Of a stretch of DNA of 64,000 nucleotides, positions 6,456-58,321 are shown piece after piece. The translations under genes were made by a program, and so were the position numbers. Source of the stretch: Nymphaea colorata (Eukaryota; Streptophyta; Magnoliopsida; Nymphaeales; Nymphaeaceae); the NCBI RefSeq assembly GCF_008831285.2, contig NC_045142.1, positions 4,347,501-4,411,500 on the forward strand, given 5' to 3'. The notes under the pieces were generated by a model that was not told where the DNA came from, made no database searches, and saw only the letters and a program-made list of their open reading frames with translations. Every line of letters begins with the position of its first letter. Positions within the stretch are counted from its first letter, which is position 1.

Positions 6456-7848
6456 TCATCTCCCTTTTAGACTGAGTGAGCCGGCAAGCGACAAGGTCAA
6501 CCTCGGTACCAGTAGGCTCGAGTCCGGGTCACCGTAGTCCGTCTTGTGGTGATCACTGTCTAGCCTTGAGTTTCCTTGTGCGATTTGCTGGTCCAACCAG
6601 TTGATTATGTCGGAGAAGACGAGCCCAATGTTTTCCGGTGGCTCGCCGGAGGTCAGTGCATGCCACATCCCGGGATAAAGCCTTAGGGTCTTGTCTGTGC
6701 TTGATGCAGACTCATATAGGAGCTTGCTGACTGAAGGGTCAGTTACTTGGTCCTCCTGACCATGTACTACCAAGAAGGGCAGTGATACCTAAGCATACCC
6801 AAACAAGGTGAACGTATTCTTGTCATAAGGCAGTACATGGAAACTAAACCAACTTGCAGTTTGAGCTCTTAAATGTAGCAAGCAGCTTGAGAGAGAAAAG
6901 AAACACCCAGGTGGAAGGGGAGTGAAAGAGGTATGTGTGTGTATGTGTGTTGGTGCGTGCTTGATGGCCGAGAAAAAATTAAATATTTTAGTTTCTAGTT
7001 ATGCATCAACATTTACGAACTAGGCCAGGTCGGGCTGGGTCAGGTAACCAACATACTTCTCGATGTGGGTGCAGCTCAGTTCTTATAGGACTGGCTCGAG
7101 CTCGGGTCAGGCTTGGTCTAGTGGCATGACATAGATCTGGGTTCAAAGTTGCCTTATTTGTATGTTGATACCTCGGTAACTTTTACTTATTCCATTAAAG
7201 GAGCTCCTGAAAGTTTAAAAATTTAAACTATTAGTGCCCCTTAATTAGCTAGAAATTTCTGGCTCCGCCACTGGGCCTACGTGTCTAGGTCTTATAGCTC
7301 ATCGTCGCACCATTTTGACTGAATTTATTAACTGTTGGGGTTGGTGGGGCTTGACTAAGTTCAACAATGGAGTGGTTTTGGAGAAGGAATTGATGGAACA
7401 CTATTTGATATAAAGAGATGCAAGCATTTTTTTTTTTTTGAAAATTTAAACTGAAAAATTTATTTATATTCTATATCCAATGCCAACAAGGACGACCAAA
7501 ATCGATTGCGACAAGAAAAGTCAAGGATATACAACAATAACAATGACAATAAAAAAAAAAAAATATGTGGTGCATAATGTAGGAAAGTGCTTGAATTTCC
7601 CTTATATTTATATAGCAGAAAACAAGCTGGTAGCTTTGCTAGCACAGTTGTCCAAGCATTATGGAGTCAACATTGTAAAAATAAGTGCGTCATCTGTATT
7701 TATCTATGAAGAGATAAGATAAATCAATGCAAGTCAATCCTTGCAGTTAATGTGGTCAACAAGATATTCCTACCGCAATTTCTAAATTATGGAGTTATTC
7801 CAACAACAAATTTGAAAAAAAAAATACAGTAACAAATTATATTTGAAG

Positions 7849-7924
<76 letters not shown>

Positions 7925-10900
7925 AGTGAGGTGGGGGGGGGGGAGAGAGAGAGAGAGAGAGAGAGAGAAAAGAGACTTTTCTGGCTCATATGCGCCCCTA
8001 TATGTACGCTTAGATTGTCTCCAAACACGTTTTGTGGTATTTAATCATATGGATGAAACTAAATAACCATGAAAATCTGATGTATATGTGAGGTTTATGA
8101 TCGTTTTATGTTTAGTCTGAGCTTGCTTGTTTGAAAAATCATAATTTAGATGAGTCACCTTCTTGAAATCCAACTATATACGCGAATTCTACATGTCCAG
8201 CGCTATAGAATTAAAAAAAAAAGAAGCATGCGATTCATTGACATAGAGAACCGATTTTATAAGAATCTAAAGGGCAACCACTTTGAACTTTGTTGATAAC
8301 TTTATCAGGTAATATTCACATATAAACTTGGCAGGCAGGTGATAATCGTGTATATGTAAGAACACTTGAGTTGTATAAAGGATTTTACCTCATGGAGACT
8401 CTTCTCTATTTGCAAGCTAATCTTCAAGAGCTCATGCCCAGTCTTTAACCGAGGCCTTCCCTTGTAACAATATCGATTGGAACGAACCTGCAACTAAGGA
8501 AATCTTCATAAGAATCCGTTTCATCTGCAAGCCTAAGTTCTCCTAAGAAATAACTCAAATTCAATTCACGAAAAGGGGTTCCATTTCATCCACCTCTTCT
8601 CTTCTCTTTGGCTCTTTTATTGCTACATTTATGATGTTCTTAGTGGGGACAATCTTCCATGTAGGGATGATCTTGCATAGCTTCGCGGAAATGCTGATTA
8701 ACAAAGCATTCGGCTTCATGTCGTCGGCTATCTGGACATGTAAACAATCCCATCAGATTACTAAAATCAATTAATATAGTCCCGAAAGGTGTAGCACAAC
8801 CGGGCGCGGTAAGGTGACTCATGAAAAAAGGGTTTGAGTTCTAAATCCCCGTGATCATTGTCACACTCTGGCGCTACTCTCACAAACTACAAAACGGTGT
8901 TTGGCGTTCAAGAGGGGAGGTATGAATTTTTCATTAGTGGGGTCAAATTTTAATTTTAGTCTCGAAAGGTGTAGCACAACCGGGCGGCAAGGTGACTCAA
9001 GAAAAAAGGGTTTGAGTTCTAAATCCCCGTGATCATTGTCACACTCTAGTGCTACTCTCACAAACTACAAAACGGTGTTTGGCGTTCAAGAGGGGAGGTA
9101 GGAATTTTTCATTAGTGGGGTCAAATTATAATTTGAAAGTCGAAATATATTTTTTTTTCAAAATTTTTATATAGATAAAATGCTCTTTTTTTTTTAATTA
9201 CATGTAGAATTTGTGTTTTTGAATATTTGAATGGGAGATGGGCCATGGCTCCTGTCTGCCTCCATTGGCTCCACCCATACTGGTGCTACTCTCGAGTTGA
9301 AAGGTGTGATCATAAGTTCATGTAGATTTCAAAACTGCTCTGGACCCAGGGACAAAGCAAAGAAAAAAGGGTTTCAGCCACCCACTCGGCAATAGAGTTG
9401 GCAAACCCTTAAAGGTGGCTGCCATCACCACCGCCACCGTCACTATTGCCGTCACCGGCCGGGACCATGACCACCTACATTTTGGGTGCAATAACTACTA
9501 TCACAAACAAAGTAAAAGTTTGGAAGAATGTGACTTCCATTTATGCAGCGATTATACCTTGCACATGGGTGCAACCAGAATTGCACCATCCCAAAACGAA
9601 GGCTGCCTCTTGTGCACAAGAAGGGCGACTGCACCACCCATGGACTCGCCCAACAGGAACCTCTTCTTCTCCTTGTTCTCCTTCCTCTCTGCCAAAGCCA
9701 TGGCGCCGGAAAACTGATTAAAACTCAGTCACGCAGATCAGTCGAGATTAATCGATTTACGGTGTTGCTTACCGGCGACGGTCGCGAAGAAATCACAACA
9801 ATCACCAACAACTTGATCAAAACTAGAGACCAATCCCTGCAAGCCTGATGATTTTCCATGGCCCTCATAGTCTATTCCATACACCGCCAGCCCTGCTTCT
9901 GCTAACCTTATTGCAGTACCTACATTACATACCAATATGCAAAAACTTACTCTACATTTCTTTCTATATACATACATACATATACATACGTGCCTGTGCC
10001 TGTGAGTGGTAGAACTGCATCGTCTCTTTAACTTTTTAAAAAGCCAATTGCATCATTTCTTCAACTTTTTAAAAAGCAAAAGCCAATGTTGCCAGATGGT
10101 TCTATGAATCATTGCTAAAAACACTCAAACCATCAATAAAGTTCATACTACTTTTAATTTGTAGTCATATATATATAAGTATCCGTTATTTAGCTCATCA
10201 AAATTTTTAGTCCAGTTGCGTGACGCAAGTACCTTCATGACTGGGAAACAGGGGACTAATATAGTGAATAAAAAAAAATTTAATGAATGCAATATTCACC
10301 TGCTTCCGCTTCCTCTTATGTACACACATACGCAAATAGTAGCATAAATATATGCGTGCGTGCATGCTTATGCGCTTGTTTGCGTGTGTGTATAGACTGC
10401 GTGCGTGCCAAAATTTTTTCATAAAACAGAACAGAGAAAACCAGAGAGCACGTTACCTTTCATGGAGATGCTGCATTCCATAGCATAACCTGTAGTGTTT
10501 GAGATCAACATAAGAGAATGAGAAGCAATTCTGTCAAATTTGAAGCCGAAGAGGAGAGACAAAACAGAGGAGGGGATCACCATGGCAGAGAAAGACGAGG
10601 CCTCTGGGCTCCTGGTTTCTGGGCAGCCATCTGCAGGTGAAGAGCTTCAGCCCTCGCCGGTTGATGATGCATTCCTGACGATGGAGGTTGCGTTCAAGGA
10701 GTCAAAATTCAGTTGAAAAAAGAAAGCAAGAGTCGATGAAAGCAATTGAGAGTTCTGTTTTCTTGAGAAAGCTTGCCTCTTCGTATCTTACGTTCTCCGT
10801 CGTATCTGCCTGCAGAGAAACAGAAAGAAGTCTTGAATTGAGATCTTGGAAGAAGACCATTAAAGGGAAACGCAACTCTTAAACTGAAATGGGAGTTTCA

Positions 10901-10930
10901 AGGATTCATGGGGACCTGAAATATTACCAT
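6456..10930 (-). CDS. Monoacylglycerol lipase-like alpha/beta hydrolase, copy A (spliced, 9 exons)
   Basis: Predicted serine hydrolase of the plant monoacylglycerol lipase (MAGL) family, which releases a fatty acid from monoacylglycerol; some members act on lysophospholipids or other esters. Coding exons on the minus strand: 10928-10930, 10777-10809, 10581-10674, 10457-10489, 9773-9919, 9558-9688, 8594-8731, 8389-8487 and 6456-6788, giving 336 aa. Visible motifs are RRGLKLFTCRWLP, FLCHG (oxyanion-hole region), GIDYEGHGKSSG, the nucleophile elbow GESMGG (Ser119), HGQEDQVTDPSVSKLLY (Asp239) and GMWHAL (His269). The ATG is the last codon of exon 1. Intron 2 has a GC donor (AG|GCAAGC). The last exon runs about 19 codons longer than in copy B, with no recognised motif. 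No TATA box is obvious. The clade seems nearest the Arabidopsis MAGL6/7/8 type, which is also tandem; that is from memory. Exon junctions are inferred, not transcript-backed. Confidence 0.88.
7851..7968. repeat. Compound (AT)n(GT)n(GA)n microsatellite in intron 8 of copy A
   Basis: About 47 bp of AT dinucleotides run into about 26 bp of GT, then a G-rich step and about 25 bp of GA. It lies in the 1.6-kb intron between exons 8 and 9. Confidence 0.9.
8779..9137. repeat. 180-bp tandem duplication with a SINE-like head, in intron 6 of copy A
   Basis: Two copies (8779-8958 and 8959-9137) are nearly identical, with period 180. Each begins with a stretch resembling a tRNA-derived SINE head: GTGTAGCACAACCGGG resembles a box A and GGTTTGAGTTCTAAATCC resembles a box B. 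Each then continues into the start of a family 2 element (GGAATTTTTCATTAGTGGGG). The second copy leads on into the remainder of the family 2 element, ending GGCTCCACCC near 9277. Confidence 0.75.
9105..9277 (+). repeat. Family 2 element
   Basis: The segment from GGAATTTTTCATTAGTGGGG through an AAATTTTTATATAG-like centre to CATTGGCTCCACCC matches the layout of the copies at 5731 and 50950. It lies within intron 6 of lipase copy A. Confidence 0.5.
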
Positions 10931-19376: not shown

Positions 19377-19691
19377 CTAGCTTGCCGGGATCTGGTCATC
19401 TTGCTCGGCCTTGATCTCGCTTTCCATCCTTGAGTTTCCTTGAGAGATTTGCTTGTCCAGCCAGTTGACGATGTCCGTGAAGACGAGTTCAATGTTCTCC
19501 GGCGTCTCGCCGGAGATCAGAGCGTGCCACATGCCGGAGTAGAGCTTGAAAGTTTTATCCGTGCTTGACGCAGACTCGTATAGGAGCTTGCTGACCTTGG
19601 GATCGGTCACTCTGTCTTCCTCACCATGTAAGATCAGGAAGGGAAGTATCACCTAACAACAGATGAAAATGAGACACATGAAAACCTCTTT

Positions 19692-19725
<34 letters not shown>

Positions 19726-19973
19726 CGTGTGAAAAGGAGAGGAATTGGTAGGTATATTGCTTTAAGTGCATGACCCGTAAGAAATCATCTTTAACTGTTG
19801 ATCTTTTGAAGATGAAAGGCTGAAAGAAAATCAAAGAGAAAAAAGATAGGATAGTTTAGTCGCCCAGCATTAATTAACAACTTTTTTTCTTGATTTTTTT
19901 TCGATCTTAGAAAGATCAACAGCCAAAGATGAATCCTTACAAGTCATGTACCTACCAATTTCTAATATATATA

Positions 19974-20022
<49 letters not shown>

Positions 20023-22097
20023 CTCATGGAGGCTCTTCTCTAGTGCCGTACTAACCCTGAGCAGTTCATAACCAGTCTTCAAACGGGTATTCCCCTTATA
20101 ACAATAAGGATCAGAAAGAAACTGAAAAAAAAAAAAAGAAAACAAAATCAATGTTCATGCTTTTGTGAGCACTAGCTTTAGTAATATCCCCGCAAAAATT
20201 CATGAAATTTTGCTAATTATTTATTTGAAAATAGATATAAAAATAATAAGCAACTGTCTGCCATTTACCTCCTCTCTTTTGCTTGGTACTTTTATAGCGA
20301 CGTCCATGAGATCCTTGGTGGGGATTATCTTCCAGGTAGGGATGATCCTGCACAATTTGGATAGAATACTGATTACCAGAGGACTTGGCTTGATCTCATC
20401 GGCTATCTGGGCAATCAGTATCAATATCACCACATTAATTACCAGATTGATAAATAGACACGAAGATCTTAAAGTTAAACATAAATAATTTTATGTCAAC
20501 ATCCCTAATATATATATATATATATACACACACACGAGTCTGGTGCCAAAACCATGTTAGAAATCTGAATTTAATAATCAAACAATAGAGTCTTTAAGAT
20601 TGATTTTTGATGCTAAAATCAGATTACTAACACAGTTTTAGAATAATCATCTAAACCGGCAGAAACTTTTCAATAGAGAAGAGAAAGACGATGAAAGTTT
20701 ATTTAAAATGATTTCCAAAGACAGTTTTAGGACGGGCCGTCTGGCAATAGTTGTCAGTGTTTCATGAATCTATCACAAGTATTGGAAACTTTTTAAAATA
20801 CTTATACAAATAGTCCATCAATATGTTTGACTATTTTGAGAAGATTCATGGAACACTCTTATAATATTTTTCATGCCAAACTGCCCCATAAGGCACACTG
20901 CTAAAAAAGGTTTTATGTTTGGGCCCGAACGGACATGGGAGACTTCCTAGCAACAATAACAACATGCTATTCTTTTATATATCTCTTGTAAAAAATGAAG
21001 CAGATTCAATATAGAATACTTTTTATGTATTTCATGAATCTATTCCAATCTTTAGTGCAAATTAGTGAAATAATAACATACTGATACTGTTGCAAAACAG
21101 ACCGTCAGAGTTTATTTATACAATAAGGATAAATAAAAAGATGAACCCATGAAGGTGGACCTTGCACATGGGTGCGACCAAAACTGCACCATCCCAAAAA
21201 GAAGGCTGCTTCTTGTGCAGCAGAAGCGCTACTGCACCACCCATGGATTCCCCCAGCAGAAACCTCATCTTGTTCTTGTTCTCCATCCTCTCTGCCCACA
21301 ACCAAGAGATCCCGAGAAACCCATTAAACTCAGTCATAAGACTGATCAGTTGAACTGAATACAATACTGTTTTCACCCTCTGCTTACCGATTATGCTAGT
21401 GTAAAATTCCCAGCAATCACCAACAACTTCATCAAAGTTGGGAATGTATCCTCTTAGGCCTGAGGATCTTCCATGGCCTTCATAATCGATTCCATAAGCC
21501 GCCATTCCTGCTTCTGCTAGTCTTATTCCAATACCTGAATTATGCATCAAAAGGTTATAATCTTAAGTATTTTTGTCTACATGAGCTCAGCTCTGTCTGT
21601 AGTATGAAAGAACGGGAAGAGGAATCAAACAGATCGTTACCGTTCATGGAAGTTTCACATCCCAAAGCGTACCCTGCATAGAATTCAAGGCAGAAAAAAA
21701 AAATGATGGAGTTGAACACCAAATTGGAGGGGATGAAGCTGTAATTTGAATGGTGATAAAAGAATCACCATGGCAAAGAAAGACCAATGATTTTGGTTCC
21801 TGGTTTCTAGGCAACCATCTGCAGGTGAAGAGCTTCAATCCACGTCGACTGATGATGAATTCCTGTCATGAAAATTATGAAATTATGCGATTTTTATGTC
21901 AAAATAATGTTCGGAATAAACGTGAAACGGAAAGAAAAGAAACATTGGTAGCCTTGCCTCTTCGTACTGCACCTGCTCTGTATTTTCTGCCTGCAGAAGA
22001 ACGAGAAAAGATCAACCAAATTAACCAAGAATATAGTCTGAGGAAATTTGAAGATGGGTGTTCCGAAGAATTGATTCAGACACAAAAATCTCACCAT
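19377..22097 (-). CDS. Monoacylglycerol lipase-like alpha/beta hydrolase, copy B (spliced, 9 exons)
   Basis: Predicted soluble serine hydrolase of the plant MAGL family, with the role described for copy A. Coding exons on the minus strand: 22095-22097, 21958-21990, 21769-21862, 21641-21673, 21388-21534, 21161-21291, 20269-20406, 20023-20121 and 19377-19652, giving 317 aa, a normal length for the family. The triad appears complete: Ser119 in GESMGG, Asp239 in HGEEDRVTDP and His269 in GMWHAL. The cap or lid region follows the sheet strand LVAPMCK and includes IADEIKPSPL and IIPTWKIIPTKD. The start codon is the last codon of exon 1 (ATG|GTGAG) and intron 2 has a GC donor (GAG|GCAAGG). A weak TATA-like stretch lies near 22187-22196. 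It is the most compact copy and the best candidate for a normal working gene of the array. Confidence 0.9.
20733..20893. repeat. Small TIR element in intron 6 of copy B
   Basis: The left end GGGCCGTCTGGCAA and the right end TGCCAAACTGCCCC are imperfect inverted repeats about 160 bp apart. A related stretch (GCAACAATAACA ... TTGCAAAACAGACC) follows at about 20950-21107. Both look like short hAT-type or similar non-autonomous elements; family assignment is tentative. Confidence 0.45.
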
Positions 22098-26219: not shown

Positions 26220-28185
26220 TCACAGAAACAGGAAGCGAGAGCAAAAACATGATAAGAGCACTACCAAAACCACATGGTCATGGAGAAGTGAACCATGAAA
26301 CTGCATTGCAAAATAAATCAGAGATACATGGCCGAAATAAGATTGAGCAAAAATTACAAGGCCCAAGAGATTCCACTTGACCCATCCATGTGCCCATTCT
26401 TCGCCTCCCAGCATCTCGGATTGCATATGTGCTGGTTTTAAACTCGCCCTCTCCTATATACATAGAAGCATAGCGCCCACTGAAATTGAACGAACGGGAA
26501 CTATGTTTGCTATGCACCACTCACCCAACCCAACTAGACTATGCCTCGTGGGGCTTATAATGACCCTAAAGTCAATCCAATGCAGTGTTGTGTGCATAAT
26601 AGTTGAACACATTCTAATCTAAACTAGGGTTTCTTCCTCGCCCTTGCATTCTCTTTCAAGTCCTGAGTTTCCTAGATCCACATGCTTGTCCAGCCAGCCG
26701 GTTATGTCGGAAAAGACGAGCTCGATGTTTTCCGGTGGCTCGCCGGAAGTCAGTGCATGCCACATCCCGGGGTACAGCTTGAGGGTCTTGTCTGTGCTCG
26801 ATGCAGAGTCGAAAAGGAGCTTGCTGACTGAGGGATCAGTTATTCTGTCTTCCTCACCATGCACCACCAAGAATGGCAGTGATACCTAACCAGACCACAG
26901 CGGCGGAAGTTAAGATCCTTCCAAGTACATTGAAAGCCTAGTTGCAATCAGGAGGAAGCCATTATCAAAGGAAAGTTCAGATGGAGATTCACAAACACCT
27001 CACTCCCTTCACACACAGCAAACGCAGTATATTTTAGTTAAAATGCATTGACTGCACTGTTTGGTTCTCTTTAGTCACGAGACATGATATCTCAAGAGTA
27101 CCTCATGGAACACGCTCTAAGCTTTATTTTCTCCAAAAGAGCTTTTTCGTGGGACTGAGTTGTCCTAGCAGCCTTAGTTGGTTTTGAGTCTATTGGCCTC
27201 TGACTATTCTCTTGACACTAGAGGAGCGTTTGATTGCTTCACATATGAGATTGATGATCTCAGAACAGAGGATTTAATGTCGGAAACTCCCTTCTCCCAA
27301 ATTTTTTTCCCCACGCAGCATCATATTTAAGGTTCTAACTATAATGACAATCTCCAATCAACATTTTTTACACAGTGGAGAAATATGGAGTTCATTTATT
27401 TTATGAGCTTTGCATAAAAGAGAAACTGTGCATGTTGGTATATGAAATTCAGTAAAAAAAAAAAAGAAGGAAATGCATTAGTCACCTCGTGAAGACTCTT
27501 CTCCAATTTCAAGCTGACCTTTAGGAGTTCATTCCCAGTCTTTAACCGAGGGATTCCTTTATAGCAGTATGGATTAGAACGAAACTGTAATTCATAATCA
27601 CAAAAAAAATTAATCAAAAAGTTAACAATCTACTAATTGGAAAAGACCTAAACGACAACCCCTTCCCTTTTTGGGGTTCTGGTTTTATTGGGACATGTGT
27701 GGGTTATGATAAACTCATCAACTATAGTGTTATGTATAGGGTATGGTACACCTGTCAACTACAGTGGTAGGGTACAGTACACTTGTCAACTACAGTATGA
27801 CAACCTCCAGATCAAAAAATGACAACATTACCATTTATGTCTTTTACGTGTCAGTTTGGCTGATAACTTATGCTACACCCTTTCATACGATAATTCTTAA
27901 AAAAAAAAACTTAAAAAAAAGATAAAATTAATGCCTATATAATTAAAAGATATGAAAGAAAAAGCTGTAAAATTTTACCTCTTCTCTCTTCTTTGGATCC
28001 TTTATGCCGACATTGACTAGATCAAGAGTAGGGATCAACTTCCACGTGGGGCCGATCTTGCATAGTTTATTCAAACAGCTGTGCACTAGAGGATTGGGCT
28101 TCATCTCCTCTGAGATCTGCAACAAATCATCAACTAATTGAATAACTCTCACAATAATATCAGCGAGCTCATCAGAAAATCACTT

Positions 28186-28380
28186 GAACTCAGGGGCGAA
28201 GCCAGGATTTTTTCTAGGGTCGGGCCAAGACGATTTGCAGACCGGGCCAAGGTCGGGCCAAGAGGAGCGATCGGTCGGGCCAAACTAAAAAAAATTGATT
28301 TTTTCAATGTAAAAAAAAAAAAAAATCCTGGTGTCACCCGGGCAAGCCCCCCCTCCCTCCGCTTCTGCTTGAACTGACCA
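28186..28380. repeat. GC-ended small element in intron 6 of copy C
   Basis: It begins CAGGGGCGAAGCCAGGATTT and ends CCCTCCGCTTCTGC. The two ends are weak inverted repeats of the GGCGAAGCCAG type. The interior repeats a TCGGGCCAAG word, and an A-rich run follows. It seems related in plan to family 2 but with a different body. Confidence 0.45.
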
Positions 28381-28481
28381 TCAAAACTAGATCCTCCGGC
28401 TTTGATTCTTCTTAATTTGACAAAAAGACCAAAAATGAAAAGAACTTGAGTTTTCATGAAATTTTTAGTGGAAGACAGTCA

Positions 28482-28925
28482 TAGGGATGCTAACAGATCA
28501 GATTTGAATAGGATTTATCATTTACTATATCCACTCTTTTGGATGTTTGTGTATTTGGATCTGAAAACTAATAAAAAAAATACTATATTCGGATCTGAAT
28601 CTGAATGTACAATTCAAATCTAATTTTTAGATTCACATCTGTATCTATCTTCTAAACTGAATCCGAACTACTGCATCACGATATGTAAGGATAAACTTTC
28701 AAAATGTATGGATGTGGGATATACTGGAAACTAATTTAAGCCTAAATGAACCCAAATCTGAATCCAACTCCCATGCTGTAATTACTTAAATCTGAATCTG
28801 AATCGGTCCGGATGTCTTTCTTAAAAATTCCAAATTTAATTTGATTTCTTAATTGAATATTAATATTTGTGTTTTTTAAAATGGATCGGTTTGATATCCG
28901 ATCTAAATTGAATTTATTGACAAAA
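28482..28925 (-). repeat. Family 1 element in intron 6 of copy C
   Basis: The left end reads TAGGGATGCTAACAGATCAG and the right part contains TTTCTTAATTGAATATTAAT then AATTGAATTTATTGACA, in the inverted order of the copies at 24897 and 61316. About 440 bp with no coding content. Confidence 0.6.
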
Positions 28926-29411
28926 CTGGATTTGGAGAAGCAAAAAAAATCTGCCCCGGTATTTGGACCCACTCTCAAAGGAAGTCGTTTTCTAAAATTC
29001 AAGTTTAGTTAAACTCGTTTTTTAAATCATTTTTTAGAACTTGGCTTTTCACAAACTTAGTTGAGACTGTCACCCAAACACGTCTTGAATAACATTTTAA
29101 GGGCAAAGCATCATTTGAATCAAAATGCATGGCATGATAAAAGATAATCAACATAGATATGAATAATTTTGGAAAACAAAGAGAAATAAACTTAAAAAGA
29201 TCTAACAATAATAATTCTAAATTTGGATTCATCTTTATACAAGGGAATTGAAATCAGCTTATAGTCACATAGTTGGTGTTGTTTTTTTTTTTATTTCATA
29301 TAATTAAAAGCGGTCGCTGTGTATTTACTACAGCCAATTGTTTGACCATGGTTTTCCGGTGACATGAAAAGAAATTACCATTGAACTACAAAGTAGCCGG
29401 CTGATTTGAGA

Positions 29412-29416
<5 letters not shown>

Positions 29417-29458
<42 letters not shown>
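29417..29458. repeat. (AT)n microsatellite in intron 6 of copy C
   Basis: About 21 AT dinucleotides, some 60 bp from the exon 6 splice donor. Confidence 0.9.
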
Positions 29459-29462
<4 letters not shown>

Positions 29463-30573
29463 CATTGACACCAAAACTATATAAGACTGTATAAATGAAA
29501 GCAGTATCATGGAAGTAGACCTTGCACATGGGTGCAACCAGAATCGCGCCATCCCAATAAGAAGGCTGCTTCTGGTGCAGAAAAGAGCCACCGCACCACC
29601 CATGGACTCCCCATAAAGAAACCTCATCTTGTTCTTGTTCTCCTTCCTCTCTGCATAACCAGAAGATCCAAACTCAATCACATAAATGATCAGTTCATAA
29701 GATGTTGCTTTTTCTTTGGGGCTTTCTCCGCAGACTCACCGGCGACGCTTGTGAAGAAATCACGGCAATCGCCGACAATTTCATCGAAGTTGGAGACGTA
29801 TCCTCTCAGGCCTGCTGATTTTCCGTGGCCTTCGTAATCGATCCCATACACCGCCATTCCTGCTTCTGCTAGCCTTGTCCCAGTACCTATGTCAATACTT
29901 TCCGCGTCAATTCTTCTCCATTTTTTAGTTTCTTCAGAATTCGAGCGTGTAATTTTAGAGAGAGAAAGACGATACCTTTCATGGTTATGCTACACTCCAT
30001 AGCGTAACCTGTCGTAATCAGAGAAAAATCTATCATGGGGAGCACAAATTTTCGAGAAGTTACTGGAAATGTGTGTTGGGTAGTTGAAAAATTGCATGGA
30101 AGGAGAGATGGTGGTCACCGTGAAGGAGAAAGATCAGGGCTTTTGGCTCTCGATTTCCGGCCGGCAGCCACCTACAGGTGAAGAGTTTTAGTCCCCGGCG
30201 ATTGATAATGAACTCCTGCAAAGGAAAAATGAAAAGGAAGACTGTTAACGGAAATACAGATCACGAAACGTAAGATACAATTGTTTCTGCTGTAGATTAG
30301 ATTAATGGTGCTTAATTACCCCTTCATATTTCACTTTTCCTGTAATCTCTGCCTGCAAAATGAACAAGAAAACAGGAAAAAAGCACAACAAAATTGATAA
30401 AAAATTAAAAAAAATAATAAAAAAAATGAAGATGGGGATAGGAGAACTATTAGTGACAATCAAAATTCATTCTTACCATTGAGAAGAAAGTAAACGAGAG
30501 AGAGAGAGATAGAGAGCGAGAATGTCCGGAAAGGTGGGTGGGAGATATCAGTTCTATCTTGAATATTTGTGTT

Positions 30574-32482: not shown

Positions 32483-35400
32483 TCATTTGTTCACAAAATT
32501 GTCCTCTTTTGTAGAACAACCTTGACTTTGAGATGCTGTCATCTGGCTTCCATTTTCGTGCCCGAGCTCGATCTGGACCTGCGAATTTCGCCGCTCAATC
32601 TGCTTGTTCAACCAGCTGATTATGTCTGAGAAGACGAGTTCGATGTTCTCCGGCGACTCACCGGAAGTCAAGTAGTGCCACATGTTTGGGTACAGTTTTA
32701 GGGTCTTGTCTGAGCTTGGTGCAGACTCATATAGGAGCTTGCTGACTGAAGGATCAGTAACATGGTCTTCCTCACCATGCACTATCAAGAAGGGAAGTGA
32801 TACCTAATCATACATAGCAAGGGCAGTTCAGATCCTGTCATATGAAGTATTACATGAAAATCTCCATTTCTTATCATGTGGAAATAATCAGTAGTTAAAA
32901 TGATGTGTGAAAGGGGAATTGAAGAAATAATAATAAGAAGTCCACACCAAACATAAAAGAGGCAAGCTTTTCTTCGTTATAACTCCATTGAAGTACAAGA
33001 AGCCAACTGTCTCCAAACTGACCATCCAACTGCTCTATGCAGTGGATTTCAACCCACTTTGTCGCTAGATTTCGTTCCACATTCAAAAGGCTATAAACCA
33101 TAACAAAAGATAAGCATGCTTTTAATTTATAGGCCTTGGCTTAACATCTCATTAAATGCAGAGGGATTGAATATGTTAAGGCTAGATAAGACTGAATATG
33201 ATCTAGGGCACACCAAGCAATCTCTCAGTATGAGAGATGTGCACTTTTTTTTTTTTTGTTATTAAGTTCAAAGGATTATATTATCTTAGTTGGTATACAA
33301 TATTCTTTTATGATTATAGGGTTGCATGCTTATTGTCAGTATGTTCATTAGTGATGCCTACAATTGATACACTTTTGAAGTGTTGTAATATCTCTACAAT
33401 GATTGGTAGGTCTGTGTAATGAGTCGAGCCACCTCGAGCTTGACTCGAACTCACTTGTTTAGTTCTACTTGTTTGTTAAATGAGTCGAGCTCAAGCTTAA
33501 CTGAAAACTCAAGCTTGTAAATTAATCAAGTTCAAGTTACATGAACTAGACCCATTTGTCCTCGATTTACTTGCCCCTGTACTTTCCAGCAAAATGAGGG
33601 TGACAGAGAGAAAATATTGATATCTACTAGTGGCTTGTATATTTAGGGGATGAAGCAATCAAATGTGTATTTGTGAGATATCATAAAAGTCAGAAGTACA
33701 AATACTTTGATCTTATTTCCAAAGGGACTATGTTAGTGTGGATGTCACATTCTTTGAGTACTAATGCTACTTCTTTCATCACTTATCCTTCGAGAATACT
33801 GAAAGGTCTAGCTCATCCCAGCTTCATATTCCATTAGAGTCATTTCCTTGTGTCCTTTCGTTTGTTCCTGTGCAGTCAACCCCTCGCTTTGTTAATCCTC
33901 CATAGGTTTACATGGGACGACAACTCCCTTCTTATGACTCTCCATCTGTTCCTTCGCAAAAAGTAAATCTCCCTTATGAGTTTAATAAGGCTAATGAAGT
34001 TCTTGGCTGCTCTACAGGTTCTCCTATAGCTTTGCAAAAAGAAAAGAGACAATGAACTCTGCATCCTATTTCCAAATTTGTGTCTACTGATTTATGTTGG
34101 AAAATGTATGCAGAATTTTATTGCTTTCATGTCTGTTGTGCCTATTCCAACAAATGATCACCAAGCACTTGTTGGTCCCAAGTGAAAACAGGTTATGCAA
34201 GAAGAACTAGATACATTGCTTTCTCAAGGGACCTGGGATCTAATACATCTACCTCCTGAGTGGCAGTGACATTGTTAGCTTCAAGTGGGTATTTAAAGTA
34301 CAAAGGCAAGTTGGTGGCAAAAAGACACACAGACATATGGAGTAAACTTCTTTGAGATTTTTTCTCAAGTCGCCAAATTAGACACTATTTGGCTTGTCAT
34401 TTTAGTAGTAGTTCATTATGAAGAGAGCATGTATCAGCTTGACGTTAAAAATGGTTTTCTATATTGAGATATGTTTGAAACAACATATATGAAGCAACCA
34501 CCAAAATTTTAATGGTAGAGAGAGGCGTGGAAAAGTATGCAGACTGAAGAAAACTATATATGACATAAAACAGACTCCACAAGTTTTGTTCCATAAATTG
34601 TTTGATATTTTATCTAGATACAAGTTCCAAAGATCTCCCTCAGACCATTTACTATTCTTAAAAAAGAGTTTCAAATGGATAGTTATTATGGTGGTTTGTA
34701 TGGATGACATTATTTTGACATGTGATGATGAACAAGAAATGATAAACACTAAATTGTACCTACAAAAGCATTTTTTTGACTAAATATCTCAAACCTCTTA
34801 GATAATCATATTCACTTGTTTGTATCGTGAGCCTTCTTTTTGTATACAATAGTTTAGGATGGTGAGTATTAAGTGTTATTTCTGTTTAGTCTTTCTTTGC
34901 TATATTTTTAGTTAATGTGTAGACTGATGCAGGTGAAGTGTCATTCTTACCTCATTGAGACTCTTCTCCATTTCCATGCTCACTTTGAGGAGTTCACATC
35001 CGGTCTTCAAACGCGGCTTTCCCTTATAGCAACAAGAATTCGTCCTAACCTAACATTTGCCAAGGTATATCAGCATCATGTTTTATAATTTTAATGTAAG
35101 CTTTTGTACATAATTAATAATATTAATCAACCAAAAATTTACTAACAGCATATTTATTATTTTATTTGTTTTTAAAACTTACCTCCTCCCTTTTTTTGGG
35201 ATCTTTTATGCCAACGTCGATGATATCTTTAGTTGGAACAATCTTCAATGTGGGCATAATTTTGCTTAACTTATTTAAAACCCCAACAACGAAAGCATTT
35301 GGCTTCATCTCATCAGTTACCTGCCCACAAAATAATCCCAAGATGATATCCATCAAATTTCCGCATCATCGATGTTGTAAAAATGATTCAATTATGTTTT

Positions 35401-37317
35401 AGTTATTTCTTATAAACTTATCATCATACAATCATTTTTTAGAATTTACTCTTAAAATACTTTCATATATAAGTGAAAACCCTAAAAAAATTTATCTTTC
35501 AATTAATGAAAGCAAAATCAAAAACTAATTATTTTGTTTTTTTGTTTCTATTAACAAATCCACCCCACCACTTAAGCATTAAATACTTAAACCAGAAAAA
35601 AAAAAAAAAGAATGAATTCAAAGACAGCAAGATCTTGGCATGCAGCAACTAGACCTTGAGCATGGGTGAGACCAAAATTGCACCATCCCAATAAGTAGGC
35701 TGCCTTTTGTGCACAAGAAGGGCCACTGCACCACCCATGGCTTCACCTAGAAGATACCTCAACTTGTTCCTGTTCTCTTCCTTCTCTAGGAAAACCAAGA
35801 TACTGAGAAGCAAGATATACATAAGGTACCCCATTTGGGAGAGCTTGTTTGTTTTGGTTCGCTTCGCTTACCGGTGATGCTGGTGAAGAAATCACTACAA
35901 TCGTCGACAACGTCGTCGAAGTTGGAGATGTATCCCTGGAGTCCTGATGATTTCCCATGGCCTTCATAGTCGATCCCATGCACTTCCATCCCTTCTCGTG
36001 CCAATCTTATGCCTGTACCTGTTGCGCCGAATATATGTGTGACCAAGCAATGGCCAGATGAGACATTGCTTTTTGAAACATGAAATACCAGATGAGACAT
36101 TCTGATGTCAAAACTTGGCAACGCAGCTTAATCTCTGACTTTGTAGCATAGTTTGTCGCATAAAATGCGTATTATTCGAAAAATGTGTATAATACCCGAG
36201 AAATAAGTCACCAGTATAAAACGGCAATTTGATGCGTCTTTTTTAAAAAAAACACATCACAAAATAAAAAAAACATGAAAAAGCAAGTATTAAAAACATT
36301 CTTTCCTATTTTTTATTAATTTTTATTTTTTTATAATTTTTAGGATTTATTAATTGTTTTAAATTTTTAAAAATTTACATCAATTTTCTCGAGATATGCA
36401 ACTTTGGAGCATTATACTGAAGAAATTTATCGCCATATAATATCCGTACATGATATATGTGACAACACTTTGGGCCATTTTTTTCAAAGTTGATTATCAT
36501 AGGTTCAACTCTCAAGATGCCCAAATCCTTAAAAACCTGATGTGCATATTAGTTTTTAATGAATTTTATTCTTATATTTTTAATTATTTGTTAATTGGCT
36601 CATGAAAAAAAGGATTAAAAAATTAGTTGCAGAATAGAATAATGGTGAATACCAAGCACATTTTAGATGCCCTGAACACACACGAACACACAAAACATTC
36701 ATTGGCACGATAAACCATTGCTAAAAGTTCTAATAGTTGCTGCACTATAAAGTGTCATTAATCTAGGCATTTTGTAGTCACATATTTTAAATTTTTATGT
36801 ATTTGATTTAAATTTTCGTATATACAGTAGATAAAAAAAAAAAAAGAGAGTTCAGGGTGCAGAGAGAAATTACCTTTCATCGAGATGCTGCATTCCATGG
36901 CGTACCCTGTTTGCTGGGAAAGAAAAATCAATCAAACACGAACAAAGAAAAACAAAAAATCATGTCCGGAAGGGAACGACGGCGATCACCGTGGAGAAGA
37001 AAGACCAATCCCTTCGTCTCGTGTTTCCGGGGTCGCCATTTGCAGGTGAAGAGCTTCAACCCTCGCCGGTTGATGAAGAACTCCTGGAACGAACCCAGCC
37101 GATCATGATCTCAACAAAATACATTCACTGAAACAGAAATCGAGTGAAATAAACAAGAAATCCTGAGGTTTCATGGTGCTTGCCCCTTCGTATTTCACAT
37201 CTGCTGCATGTTCTCCCTGCAGAAAACAACACCAAATTAGCAGATTTAACCCACAAACTGGTTTTGATCAGAAACGAAGATGACGGCTTCCCGGGATCCT
37301 ACCAACCGGGCGCTCAT
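32483..37317 (-). CDS. Monoacylglycerol lipase-like protein, copy D, catalytic serine replaced by alanine (spliced, 9 exons)
   Basis: Coding exons on the minus strand: 37303-37317, 37184-37216, 36990-37083, 36874-36906, 35872-36018, 35655-35785, 35183-35320, 34951-35049 and 32483-32803, giving an unbroken 336-aa frame. The fold motifs are all there: FLLHG, GIDYEGHGKSSG, SPMLK, HGEEDHVTDPSVSKLLY with Asp243, and NMWHYL with His273. The nucleophile elbow, however, reads GEAMGG: codon 123 is GCC where copies A, B and C have TCC (Ser). A serine hydrolase without this serine is expected to lack esterase activity, so this may be a pseudoenzyme. Exon 1 encodes MSARL, four codons more than in the other copies. 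Intron 2 has a GC donor (GGG|GCAAGC). Intron 8 is 2.1 kb and contains a copia fossil. Frame conservation argues against simple decay, but a recent single change is also possible. Confidence 0.85.
33408..33560. repeat. GAGCTCAAGCTTG-rich repeat
   Basis: Recurring words GAGTCGAGC, GAGCTCAAGCTT and AACTCAAGCTTG over about 150 bp are typical of a small repeated element. It sits just left of the copia fossil, within intron 8 of copy D. Confidence 0.4.
33600..34800 (+). mobile_element. Ty1/copia-type retrotransposon fossil in intron 8 of lipase copy D
   Basis: Pieces of a copia polyprotein can be recognised on the plus strand, including a reverse-transcriptase active-site-like VCMDDIILTCDD segment near 34695-34735 and upstream text resembling the start of the copia RT region. 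The element is clearly broken, with multiple breaks and no long frame. I could not find its LTRs, so the ends given are approximate. It lies antisense to the host gene. The amount of damage suggests it is old. Confidence 0.7.
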
Positions 37318-42514: not shown

Positions 42515-42716
42515 TTTAATTTTTTGCTCCGTTTTCTGGTTCGTCCCTTTCCCCACTCTTGCCTGTTTGAGTGAAGGTATCAGGGTCTCGTTTTCCCTTT
42601 GTTGTTTCGTGGAAGCCATTTTGCAGAAGTCATTACCTTTGTCTTCCTCGTCTCGTTGTAGTTCTTCTTCCTCGAAGAATGACGAAGAGCCTTCCTCCAT
42701 TCTGCACTGGGCGACC

Positions 42717-44867
42717 ATGGCGAAGTTTCTCCCTTCTCGTCGCATACTCCCTACCAGAACTCTCCCCCGATTCAGCTCAAGGCTGTTCGGTCAAGCCATT
42801 GTCCATGCCCACCTGAAGCAGATTCAGAGAGCCCATGCCCACCTCCTAGTGAATGGCCTCCATGAGGACGACAGCCTCTTAGCAGACACCATCTTCCACG
42901 CCAAACAAGGCTCTTACTATGACATTCTGTACTGCCGCCTAATCTTCGATCGGATCCCCAGCCCCACGGTTTCTACATGGAACTGTCTGATCAGGCTCTA
43001 TGCAGATTCCTACTGGGACGCCTCGTATTCCTTCCTTCTGTACCGGGAAATGCGGCGTCGGGCAAACCAGCCTGACCATCTTACGTTTCCCTTCTTGCTC
43101 AAGGGCTTAGGCAATGGTGGGACGCTTTCAGACGCCGTTTGCGTCCACACCCATGTTCTGAAATCGGGATTTTTGTCGGATTTGTTTGTACAGACCTCGT
43201 TGATGAGTTTTTATACGAAATTTTGTTGTATGGAGTACGCACACCAAATATTCGATCAAATGAGTGAACGAGATACAGCGTCTTGGAACGTTCTGATTGG
43301 TGGGTATTCGCAGAAAGGCTGCTTAGGATCCGTCTTTTCGGTTTTCCAGGGGATGCGGCGTCTGTCTTATTGCTCACCGGATTGTATCACAGTTATGAGT
43401 TTGATGCAGGCCTGTGTGGGGGAAGACAATCGGCAAGTCGGGGAGTCCATTCATTGTTTGGTAATTAAGAATGGCATGGAGAAGGACGTTTCAGTCAAGA
43501 ACACGCTGATTGCCATGCTTGGCAAGTGCGAAGATAGCGAATCGGCCGAGTTATTATTTAGTGAAATGGACCCGCTTGATCGGAACACGGTGTCTTGGAA
43601 CGCCTTGATTTCAGGTTGCTGTTGTCAAGAGGATTCTACCGGAGCAGTAAATATTTTCAATCGGATGCTGCAGTCGGATGAAAGACCTGATCTGGGGACT
43701 ATTTTGAGCTTGGTCTCAGCATTGGCTGAATTTGATATGCTGCCGGCTGGAGGAAGCATTCATTGTTATGTTCTCAAGGCTGGTTTCGATTCAAACATCT
43801 CCGCGGGGAATGCAATTATTTCAATGTATTCAAAATGTGGGGATGCGCAGGCTGCATATCAAGTTTTTGCTGAGATGAGAACGAGAAACCGCGTCACCTG
43901 GACTTCCATTGTTTCTGGGTTTGCTCAAAGTGGTTGCTCAGATGAAGCTAAACAGTTATTCAAGGACATGTTAATGGCTGGTGAGAAACCTGATTCCGTG
44001 ACTATAGTCGCCATGCTCTCTGCTTGTAGCATCTCGGGGGATCATGAATATGGAAAATGGATACATGACTACACAATTGCAGGAGGGCTCATTACTAATG
44101 TCATTGTCTGCAACGCGTTGGTGGACATGTATGCTAAATGCGGCAGCATGAGTGATGCTCGCCAAGTTTTTGAAAGAATGCAGGAGAAGAACATTATCTC
44201 TTGGACAACTATGATACTGGGTTACGCCATGAATGGAGAGTTCAAAGAGGCACTCAATATTTTTTCTGAGATGCTGAAGTTGGGCATAAGACCTAATCAT
44301 GTTACTTTTCTTGCTGTTCTCTCAGCATGCGTTCATGGTGGTCTATTGGAGAAGAGCCTACAGATTTTTCACTCCATGACTGCTACGTATCATATACTTC
44401 CCAGGTTAGAGCACTATGCTTGTGTCGCTGACCTTCTAGGTCGCCAAGGGAACATCCAACAAGCACTGGATTTAATACAAAGTATGCCCGTTAGACCTGA
44501 TGCTGGTATATGGGGTGCCTTGCTGGGAGCTTGCAGAATTCACCACGAAATCGAGATAGGAGAGTTTGTTGCAGAGAGACTTCTGGAGCTAGACCCAAGT
44601 GCTGTTTCCCATGTTTCCATGGCCAATATATATGCAGGAGAAGGGAAATGGGAAGGTGCTGCAAGATTAAGAATGATGATGAAGTCGAAGAAAGTAAAGA
44701 AAACACCTGGTTGCAGTTTTGTTCAAGCAAATGGCAGTACTCATTCATTTGCTGTTGAAGATAGGTCACATCCTGAACATCGGATGATTTATGAAGTTGT
44801 TGATGGGTTGGCATTACAGCTGAAGGGCATTGAAGTCGTGGAAATTGAAGAAGCGGTAAATTTTTGA
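42717..44867 (+). CDS. Pentatricopeptide repeat protein, PLS class, E subclass, probably mitochondrial
   Basis: Intronless 716-aa PPR protein; such proteins bind organellar RNA sequence-specifically, and E-subclass members usually act in C-to-U editing together with DYW-type partners. I chose the ATG at 42717 (ACCATGGCG, good context). The frame is open for 50 further codons upstream but has no ATG there. The N-terminus (MAKFLPSRRILPTRTLPRFS) is rich in Arg and Ser and poor in acidic residues, like a mitochondrial presequence. About 14 P/L/S repeats follow (phrases such as SWNVLIGGYSQKG, NALVDMYAKCGSMSDARQVF and SWTTMILGYAMNGEFKEALN), then E-type motifs from about residue 590 (IWGALLGACRIHHEIEIGE, KKTPGCSFV, HSFAVEDRSHPEH). 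No DYW domain is present. From memory it resembles Arabidopsis At4g19191; that needs a database search. Confidence 0.93.
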   Translation: MAKFLPSRRILPTRTLPRFSSRLFGQAIVHAHLKQIQRAHAHLLVNGLHEDDSLLADTIFHAKQGSYYDILYCRLIFDRIPSPTVSTWNCLIRLYADSYWDASYSFLLYREMRRRANQPDHLTFPFLLKGLGNGGTLSDAVCVHTHVLKSGFLSDLFVQTSLMSFYTKFCCMEYAHQIFDQMSERDTASWNVLIGGYSQKGCLGSVFSVFQGMRRLSYCSPDCITVMSLMQACVGEDNRQVGESIHCLVIKNGMEKDVSVKNTLIAMLGKCEDSESAELLFSEMDPLDRNTVSWNALISGCCCQEDSTGAVNIFNRMLQSDERPDLGTILSLVSALAEFDMLPAGGSIHCYVLKAGFDSNISAGNAIISMYSKCGDAQAAYQVFAEMRTRNRVTWTSIVSGFAQSGCSDEAKQLFKDMLMAGEKPDSVTIVAMLSACSISGDHEYGKWIHDYTIAGGLITNVIVCNALVDMYAKCGSMSDARQVFERMQEKNIISWTTMILGYAMNGEFKEALNIFSEMLKLGIRPNHVTFLAVLSACVHGGLLEKSLQIFHSMTATYHILPRLEHYACVADLLGRQGNIQQALDLIQSMPVRPDAGIWGALLGACRIHHEIEIGEFVAERLLELDPSAVSHVSMANIYAGEGKWEGAARLRMMMKSKKVKKTPGCSFVQANGSTHSFAVEDRSHPEHRMIYEVVDGLALQLKGIEVVEIEEAVNF

Positions 44868-56455: not shown

Positions 56456-58321
56456 ATGATGGCAACGAAAGCAACCTTACTCAGCCTTTTTTCTTCCAGA
56501 GAAAGAGGAAGAGGAGATGGGGAGCTTTACTCCGCCATAGCCGCTTCCTCCGGCTCATCTGGCCGCCTCGCTTCGGCGACTCCACGTCGCCTCAATTCCT
56601 TCCAGGTTCGGGACATCCTCTCCCGCGCACAGGCGTTCGTCTCCAAGTGGGATCCCAACTCCTCCGCCTATGCCAAGATCACTTCCCTCTGGTACGAGAG
56701 CCGCCAGGAGGCCAAGGAGTACGTTCGCTCCGTGATCGAGCTCCAGGCCGCCATGCTGTTCCTTGCCTCCAGTAACCCGTCCTCGCCGGACCTCATCCGC
56801 GCGCAGAGCCTGATGCAGACCGCCATGAAGCGGTTAGAGAAGGAGTTCTACCAGATACTCGCCGCTAACCGCGACTACCTGGACCCCGAATCCGTCTCGG
56901 GCCGGTCGTCCACCAGCACTTTGGAGTTCGAGGACGATATGAACTTGGACGACGAGATCAGGGAGGTCGGGAAGTCGATTGGCGATGTGGAGAGGGTGTC
57001 CGCGCTGGCCATGGCGGATCTCGCCTCCATCGCCGAGTGTATGATCGCCACCGGGTACGGAAAAGAGTGCGTGAAGGTTTATATGATCGTGCGGAAGTCC
57101 ATCATCGACGAGGGGCTCTACCGTCTCGGTGTCGAGCGATTGAGCTCCTCCCGGATGAAAAAGATGGATTGGGGAATCATGGAGATGAAGATCAAAGGAT
57201 GGATACATGCCGTAAAGATCGCCGTCAAGACGCTCTTTTACGGCGAGCGTATCCTCTGCGATCATGTCTTCGCTACGTCCCAACACATCCGGGAAGCGTG
57301 CTTCGCGTCCATCACCAAGGAAGGAGCGCAACTGCTCTTCGGCTTCCCTGAAGCTGTCGCCAGAGGAAAGAAGTCGCCGGAGAAGATGTTCAAGATGCTT
57401 GATCTATACGACGCGATCGCGGAGCTCTGGCCGGATATAGAGTCCACCTTCTCCTGCGAGTCATCCAGCGCCGTGCGAGCCCAGGCCGTCTCCGCGCTCA
57501 CCAAGCTCGGCGAGGCCGTCCGATCGATGCTGGCGGATTTCGAGGCGGCGATGCAGAAGGACTCGGCCAAGACGCCCGTGCCGAGAGGCGGCCTCCATCC
57601 TCTCACGCGCTACGTCATGAACTTCCTCTCCCTCCTTGCTGATTACCGCGACATCCTAGCCGATATCGTCGCCGGTTGGCCGATGAAGAAGTCTCTTCCG
57701 GTTGAGATTTCCGATCGCATTGACGATAACCCGATATCCGGCCGGTTCGCGTGGCTCATTCTCGTCCTCCTCTGCAAGCTCGACAGCAAGGTGAGCCTCT
57801 ACAGGGACGTGGCGGTCTCCTACCTCTTCCTGACGAACAACCTCAACTACATCATCGGGAAGGTCCAAAGCTCCAACCTCCGGTTCATCCTCGGCGACAT
57901 GTGGCTGCAACTGCACACCGAGAAGCTCCGCCAGTACGCCATAAGCTACGTGCAGACGGCGTGGAGCAAGGTGGCGGAGGCCCTGACGGAGTTCCCGGAA
58001 GAGCCCGACGCCGAGAGCGGGAGAGAGGCGTTCCGGCGGTTCAGCGCTTCGTTCGAGGAGGCGTACCAGTCGCAGACAGCATCGATCGTGACGGACGACC
58101 GGCTCAGGGAAAGCCTGAAGCTGTCGATCGCGCGGATGGTCGTTCCGGCGTACCGCTCCTTCCACGGCCGGTTTAGCGGTTTGCTCATGGAGGAAGAGGG
58201 CCAGAGCGTGGTCAGGTACTCGCCGGAAGATCTGGAAAACTACATCTCCGACCTCTTTTACGGGAGCAGTGCCAGCGGCAGCGCAACATCTTCCATCCAA
58301 TCGCAAGGCTCCTCCCTGTGA
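56456..58321 (+). CDS. Exo70 exocyst subunit, intronless
   Basis: Subunit of the exocyst complex, which tethers secretory vesicles to the plasma membrane; plant Exo70s form a large family with roles in polar secretion, wall deposition and immunity. The 621-aa product has the C-terminal Exo70 domain (about residues 230-600), with GGLHPLTRYVMNFLSLLADY, RFAWLILVLLCKLDSK, SYLFLTNNLNYIIGKVQSSN and a late VVPAYRSFHGRF segment, followed by a Ser-rich tail. The N-terminal half contains the helical region with acidic LEFEDDMNLDDE. Two ATGs stand in tandem (MMATKA); the second has better context (ATGATGGCA) and would give 620 aa. The gene has no intron, typical of the expanded plant Exo70 clades (an H-like type is possible but not proven). 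The CDS is strongly GC-rich, unlike its flanks. AATAAA-type signals lie at 58359-58385. Confidence 0.95.
   Translation: MMATKATLLSLFSSRERGRGDGELYSAIAASSGSSGRLASATPRRLNSFQVRDILSRAQAFVSKWDPNSSAYAKITSLWYESRQEAKEYVRSVIELQAAMLFLASSNPSSPDLIRAQSLMQTAMKRLEKEFYQILAANRDYLDPESVSGRSSTSTLEFEDDMNLDDEIREVGKSIGDVERVSALAMADLASIAECMIATGYGKECVKVYMIVRKSIIDEGLYRLGVERLSSSRMKKMDWGIMEMKIKGWIHAVKIAVKTLFYGERILCDHVFATSQHIREACFASITKEGAQLLFGFPEAVARGKKSPEKMFKMLDLYDAIAELWPDIESTFSCESSSAVRAQAVSALTKLGEAVRSMLADFEAAMQKDSAKTPVPRGGLHPLTRYVMNFLSLLADYRDILADIVAGWPMKKSLPVEISDRIDDNPISGRFAWLILVLLCKLDSKVSLYRDVAVSYLFLTNNLNYIIGKVQSSNLRFILGDMWLQLHTEKLRQYAISYVQTAWSKVAEALTEFPEEPDAESGREAFRRFSASFEEAYQSQTASIVTDDRLRESLKLSIARMVVPAYRSFHGRFSGLLMEEEGQSVVRYSPEDLENYISDLFYGSSASGSATSSIQSQGSSL

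Follow-up and report, generated by a model that had tools for sequence, protein, structure and literature searches.

What becomes of a lipase gene that keeps its reading frame and loses its catalytic serine? The question is raised by one of four monoacylglycerol lipase (MAGL)-type genes, A to D, which form a tandem array with a common nine-exon structure on the minus strand of the window, the whole stretch of 64,000 nucleotides of Nymphaea colorata DNA analysed here. An earlier note on the same DNA reported that copy D carries alanine at the position of the serine, and proposed that it is either a pseudoenzyme or a gene at the start of decay. The neighbouring genes on the plus strand presumably encode a ribosomal protein L35-like protein (38132 onward), a PPR protein (42567-44867) and an EXO70-like exocyst subunit (56456-58321).

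Gene structure and nucleophile elbow of copy D

Copy D extends from 37317 to 32483 on the minus strand, and its nine exons join into one open frame of 1011 nt, encoding 336 amino acids. Coding exon 1 (37303-37317, MSARL) holds the ATG start and ends at the donor GTAGGA. It is followed on the same strand by exon 2 (37184-37216), exon 3 (36990-37083), exon 4 (36874-36906), exon 5 (35872-36018), exon 6 (35655-35785, 131 nt), exon 7 (35183-35320), exon 8 (34951-35049) and exon 9 (32483-32803), the last encoding a longer C-terminal tail than in B and C. The splice sites are proper and all introns are GT-AG, save for a GC donor at intron 2, directly after exon 2. Across the nine exons the frame is unbroken, no stop interrupts it and no splice site has been lost. 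The protein contains the alpha/beta-hydrolase domain Hydrolase_4 (Pfam PF12146; 210 bits, with 27 as the cut-off), and residues 18-300 align with human MGL chains (3hju and others) with an E-value of about 2e-28.

Seven paralogues, A to G, were modelled in total, and the GC donor of intron 2 is common to five of them (A, B, D, F and G), with GT in C and E. Within intron 8, the last intron of D, degenerate pieces of a Copia-type reverse transcriptase were observed on the plus strand (34297-34783), with RVT_2 matches of E 1.2e-13, above the cut-off, and 6e-5, below the cut-off (two of three pieces tested, from 56 listed).

The nucleophile elbow is located in exon 6, the sequence of which is RYLLGEAMGGAVAL. 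It reads GEAMGG, and codon 123, GCC at 35741-35739, specifies alanine at the position of the catalytic serine of the GXSXG motif, just as the earlier note had read it. With alanine in the nucleophile position, the product of D is predicted to be incapable of forming an acyl-enzyme. The other two members of the triad, Asp243 (GAC, 32767-32765) and His273 (CAC, 32677-32675), are both encoded in exon 9 and were identified by alignment with the human MGL chain. The remaining exons, splice sites, Asp and His are thus retained, as had been stated, with the qualifications that intron 2 has its GC donor and that the histidine lies in the context NMWH, followed by tyrosine (NMWHYL), and not in GMWH as in the six other modelled paralogues. 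The lipid-binding motif VX3HGY is also present, starting from VFLLHG at the end of exon 3 and running on into exon 4. The acyltransferase motif HX4D of the AtMAGL3/CSE type, by the definition given in PMC8704367, is absent from D, where HGYAME corresponds to HX4E. As far as its sequence tells, D is a complete protein that lacks one essential catalytic residue, as is the case in pseudoenzymes.

The three other genes of the array all encode GESMGG with the serine codon TCC, in accordance with the earlier note, and the C6 paralogue E uses TCG. Paralogue A (6456-10930, minus strand) has nine exons and encodes 336 aa; paralogue B (19377-22097, minus strand) has nine exons and encodes 317 aa. A repeated stretch was seen in intron 6 of A (9125-8770), where translated pieces of 28-35 aa resemble each other at 71-93%. 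A 17-bp elbow pattern allowing either Ser or Ala gave four exact matches within the window, one per paralogue, and five matches when up to two mismatches were accepted, where chance alone would give 0.86. A degenerate pattern for the alanine form (GE/Q-A-MGGA, GGNSARGCNATGGGNGGNGC) had a single match in the entire genome (407.8 Mb, 783 contigs), namely D itself, and none with the reversed control. At the protein level, 53 stretches of the genome gave matches. Serine was found in 12 of the 12 paralogues other than D with a readable elbow, three in the window (A, B and C) and nine outside it (L006, L007, L009, L010, L037, L038, L040, L041 and L042). In two distant paralogues, L043 and L044, the elbow was looked for and not found; the count outside the window leaves aside L039, a lone last exon, and weak matches on C75 and C160.

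The earlier note had implied that all three serine-bearing paralogues are sound, which does not hold for C (26619-30479, minus strand). Its exon 6 (29650-29521) measures 130 nt instead of 131, one base being missing within 29588-29574. The frame is lost directly after GESMGGAVAL and a stop follows at codon 153, in exon 7. The other eight exons of C are all in the family frame and its omega is low (0.13-0.14, see below), and the lesion is therefore either a very recent break, making C a pseudogene, or an indel in the assembly. Within the array, the serine-bearing copy C is broken and the serine-less copy D is intact.

The shortage of one base in C, possibly a long-read error, also bears on the GCC codon, which is one base away from TCC and could be an error of assembly or else a private allele, with serine in the population. 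This is improbable. GCC is a substitution and not an indel, and indels are the usual type of error in long reads. When 35600-36050 was searched against the DNA of the whole genome, the only full match (100%) was followed at 73% by the second-ranking place, and there was thus no sign of a duplicate or collapsed copy of this segment. Moreover, the Nymphaea colorata assembly was polished with Arrow and also with Illumina reads and Pilon, according to the available text of PMC7015852.

Selection on copy D

Codon likelihoods were computed with a home-made implementation on 286 aligned codons of the seven genes A to G, using F3x4 frequencies; along the stem leading to F and G, substitutions approached saturation (t about 5 per codon). 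Of the 15 topologies for the branching of A to D, with E and F+G taken as outgroup, the four of highest likelihood were no more than 2.0 lnL units apart. The order of A to D being unresolvable, the codon tests were therefore carried out on the two top-ranking trees and additionally on one that left A to E unresolved and scored 22 lnL units worse.

On these three trees, omega on the D branch was 0.187, 0.178 and 0.185, with a background of 0.137-0.138. A separate omega for D brought no significant improvement over a single ratio (2 delta lnL of 1.5, 1.0 and 1.5). Forcing omega to 1, which was done for D and C alone, cost 2 delta lnL of 36.1, 43.3 and 50.7 for D and was rejected on each tree. 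In the same codon test A and B, which retain the serine, reached 0.20-0.22. The comparison of D with A and B had been proposed beforehand, with a value near 1, together with frame breaks in close relatives, as a result that would refute the proposal; no such value was seen on the D branch. These tests show that, as a branch average, the D protein has been kept by selection over most of its history. On average D looks like a working gene, but a late loss may have taken place. We infer that constraint persisted after the loss of the serine.

A second line of evidence comes from dispersed fragments. The segment of D spanning intron 1 through exon 3 (37278-36990) has seven diverged and decayed copies that are 75-78% identical, one on C3 (G000:C3:11255801) and six on C11 (17266199, 17340240, 18348087, 18355790, 18374246 and 18381746). 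Two fragments were aligned with the whole D gene and lose their similarity to it where exon 3 ends; the remaining five were compared with a query that itself reached barely beyond that exon. Relative to the fragment majority, D is different at 13 of 114 sites in exons and at 30 of 141 in introns (Fisher p 0.04), whereas the fragments differ among themselves about equally in exon (31/464) and intron (47/571) comparisons; the sites counted were those covered by at least three fragment groups and showing a majority. This contrast between exon and intron is consistent with D having evolved under constraint from the time the fragments split off. The fragments may have descended from a sister gene of D. 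Four of them (L059, L061, L062 and L063) lie in C11 segments that are about 92-98% identical in blocks of more than 1 kb, and were therefore carried along by larger duplications. Exon 6 had no match at the fragment places, and the fragments are of no use for dating the loss of the serine.

Another candidate, that D is a long-dead pseudogene, was rejected, as an omega of 1 fails on the three trees and no lesion is present in D.

Both halves of the earlier proposal, pseudoenzyme or start of decay, fit the data. What falls away is decay by long neutral evolution (omega of 1 at 2 delta lnL 36-51); the constraint on the branch fits a pseudoenzyme and cannot date the loss. As an incipient pseudogene, D would have been a constrained enzyme that lost its serine recently by one T-to-G change and is now free of selection, too young to have gathered a stop or a frameshift. 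This is a close rival and a distinctly possible course of events. The space left for it was assessed with a two-phase model of normal and then neutral evolution, fitted on the best tree for D, C, A and B. The neutral tail of D peaks at 0.08 per codon and is permitted up to a 95% limit of about 0.21 per codon (grid 0.20-0.25), corresponding to about one sixth of the branch or 0.07 substitutions/site. With a tail of 0.1 the probability of having no stop is 0.29, and 0.01 when coding indels are included at an assumed 0.1 per substitution. However, the gain of the tail over none is 0.68 lnL units in D, which is not significant, against 0.85 in A and 1.23 in B, both with serine, and nil in C. Since A and B give the same signal, D has no excess over them, and the loss of its serine is undatable. 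The frame, splice sites, Asp and His of D, all intact, also argue against incipient decay.

Two further observations lean towards it. In the alignment of the seven paralogues, private changes, those at positions where the other genes are invariant, are most numerous in D (13 out of 121) and include W176L and G270N, the latter three residues before His273. The corresponding counts are 9/117 in A, 10/118 in B, 2/110 in C, 7/115 in E and 3/111 in both F and G. The changes in D could represent early relaxation and would then count against the reading as a pseudoenzyme. Furthermore, in the adjoining copy C there is just one lesion, and a fresh one, so that decay may be under way in the array.

Possible function of the copy D product

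The effect of replacing the nucleophile serine by alanine can be judged from engineered proteins. Human MGL S122A is described as folded, open by NMR and completely complexed at a ligand ratio of 1:1, with nil activity; simulations, unlike the NMR data, favour the closed form (PMC7595040). GXAXG mutants of Arabidopsis MGL reportedly lost all activity, a result attributed to Kim and Suh 2016 for MAGL6 and MAGL8 (PMC9000616). As far as these sources go, they give good support to the statement of the earlier note that the GxSxG serine is needed for ester cleavage. With the human mutant dead and the Arabidopsis ones reported to be so, D can be regarded as a natural version of that knock-out. By analogy, hydrolysis by D via the normal route is very unlikely and binding of a ligand is plausible; the fold is presumably retained.

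The best single reading, to which we assign a probability of roughly one half, is that D is a hydrolase-dead MAGL paralogue, a historically constrained and intact gene with a retained ligand-binding role. Tandem duplication would have given rise to D as a complete MAGL-type alpha/beta-hydrolase gene. Its product would then bind a monoacylglycerol-like or phenolic-ester ligand and leave it uncut. In doing so it might sequester or sense the ligand, or modulate paralogues A or B. Among leaf-beetle pectinases, the dead ones are reported to have affected the pathway more than the live ones (PMC6549527). In short, D probably binds a lipid-like molecule without cutting it, or else it lost its activity too recently for decay to have followed.

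Comparison with known systems

Likeness between D and the plant monoacylglycerol lipases of the AtMAGL6/AtMAGL8 type and caffeoyl shikimate esterase is at the family level: they have the Hydrolase_4 domain, VX3HGY, Asp and His in common, but the nucleophile is serine in those enzymes and alanine in D. In human MGL S122A, the same Ser-to-Ala replacement at the aligned position goes together with a retained Asp and His, as described in PMC7595040; that protein was engineered in the laboratory, whereas D occurs in nature and has private changes besides this one.

Natural members with a defective lipase motif have been described in poplar and cotton. PoptrCSE14 and PoptrCSE18 miss whole motifs and PoptrCSE18 is a shorter peptide, by the account in PMC8704367, while D is complete. 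In GhMAGL4, 16 and 19 of cotton the first Gly of the motif is altered and the Ser is kept, as far as PMC11191281 describes them; in D it is the Ser that is replaced. Among the matches listed from open-licence papers, there was no description of a natural nucleophile Ser-to-Ala change in an otherwise intact plant MAGL gene, and the literal motif GEAMGG returned nothing in the open-licence literature.

Pseudoenzymes of the alpha/beta-hydrolase fold are already known, and proteins of this fold have also been retained with a broken triad for other purposes. The carboxylesterase-like [4+2] cyclases of Apocynaceae are, like D, kept despite a disrupted triad (PMC10873640), and by this precedent D could have gained a different, non-hydrolytic chemistry that uses the His-Asp pair without a nucleophile. 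D does keep His and Asp with the Ser gone, and G270N, C150L, A147S and the tyrosine after the histidine (NMWHYL) might reshape the pocket. In the cyclases, however, the available description has His, and not Ser, replaced, by Tyr or Phe, and the new reaction was demonstrated, whereas in D it would be hypothetical. A change of chemistry in D is very improbable.

Relevant to the reading of D as a hydrolase-dead, ligand-binding paralogue are the GID1 gibberellin receptors, which are plant alpha/beta hydrolases derived from a carboxylesterase and became hormone receptors with the loss of one triad residue and of catalysis (PMC10873640). The parallel is one of principle: by the same source the residue lost in GID1, a class I carboxylesterase, is His, whereas D, of the MAGL family, lost its Ser. 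Extended to its full length, the parallel would make D a lipid receptor or sensor that arose from a MAGL when the nucleophile was lost, and the counterpart of GID1 in that family. It would bind a monoacylglycerol or caffeoyl-ester ligand and signal, or throttle its active neighbours, in a species that may be an early-diverging flowering plant. We consider this specific form doubtful. If D is not retained in related species, it is a gene caught at the first step of decay, next to a copy broken in another way. If it is retained there, it offers a natural test of the passage from lipid hydrolase to lipid receptor by loss of the nucleophile, comparable to the passage from carboxylesterase to GID1.
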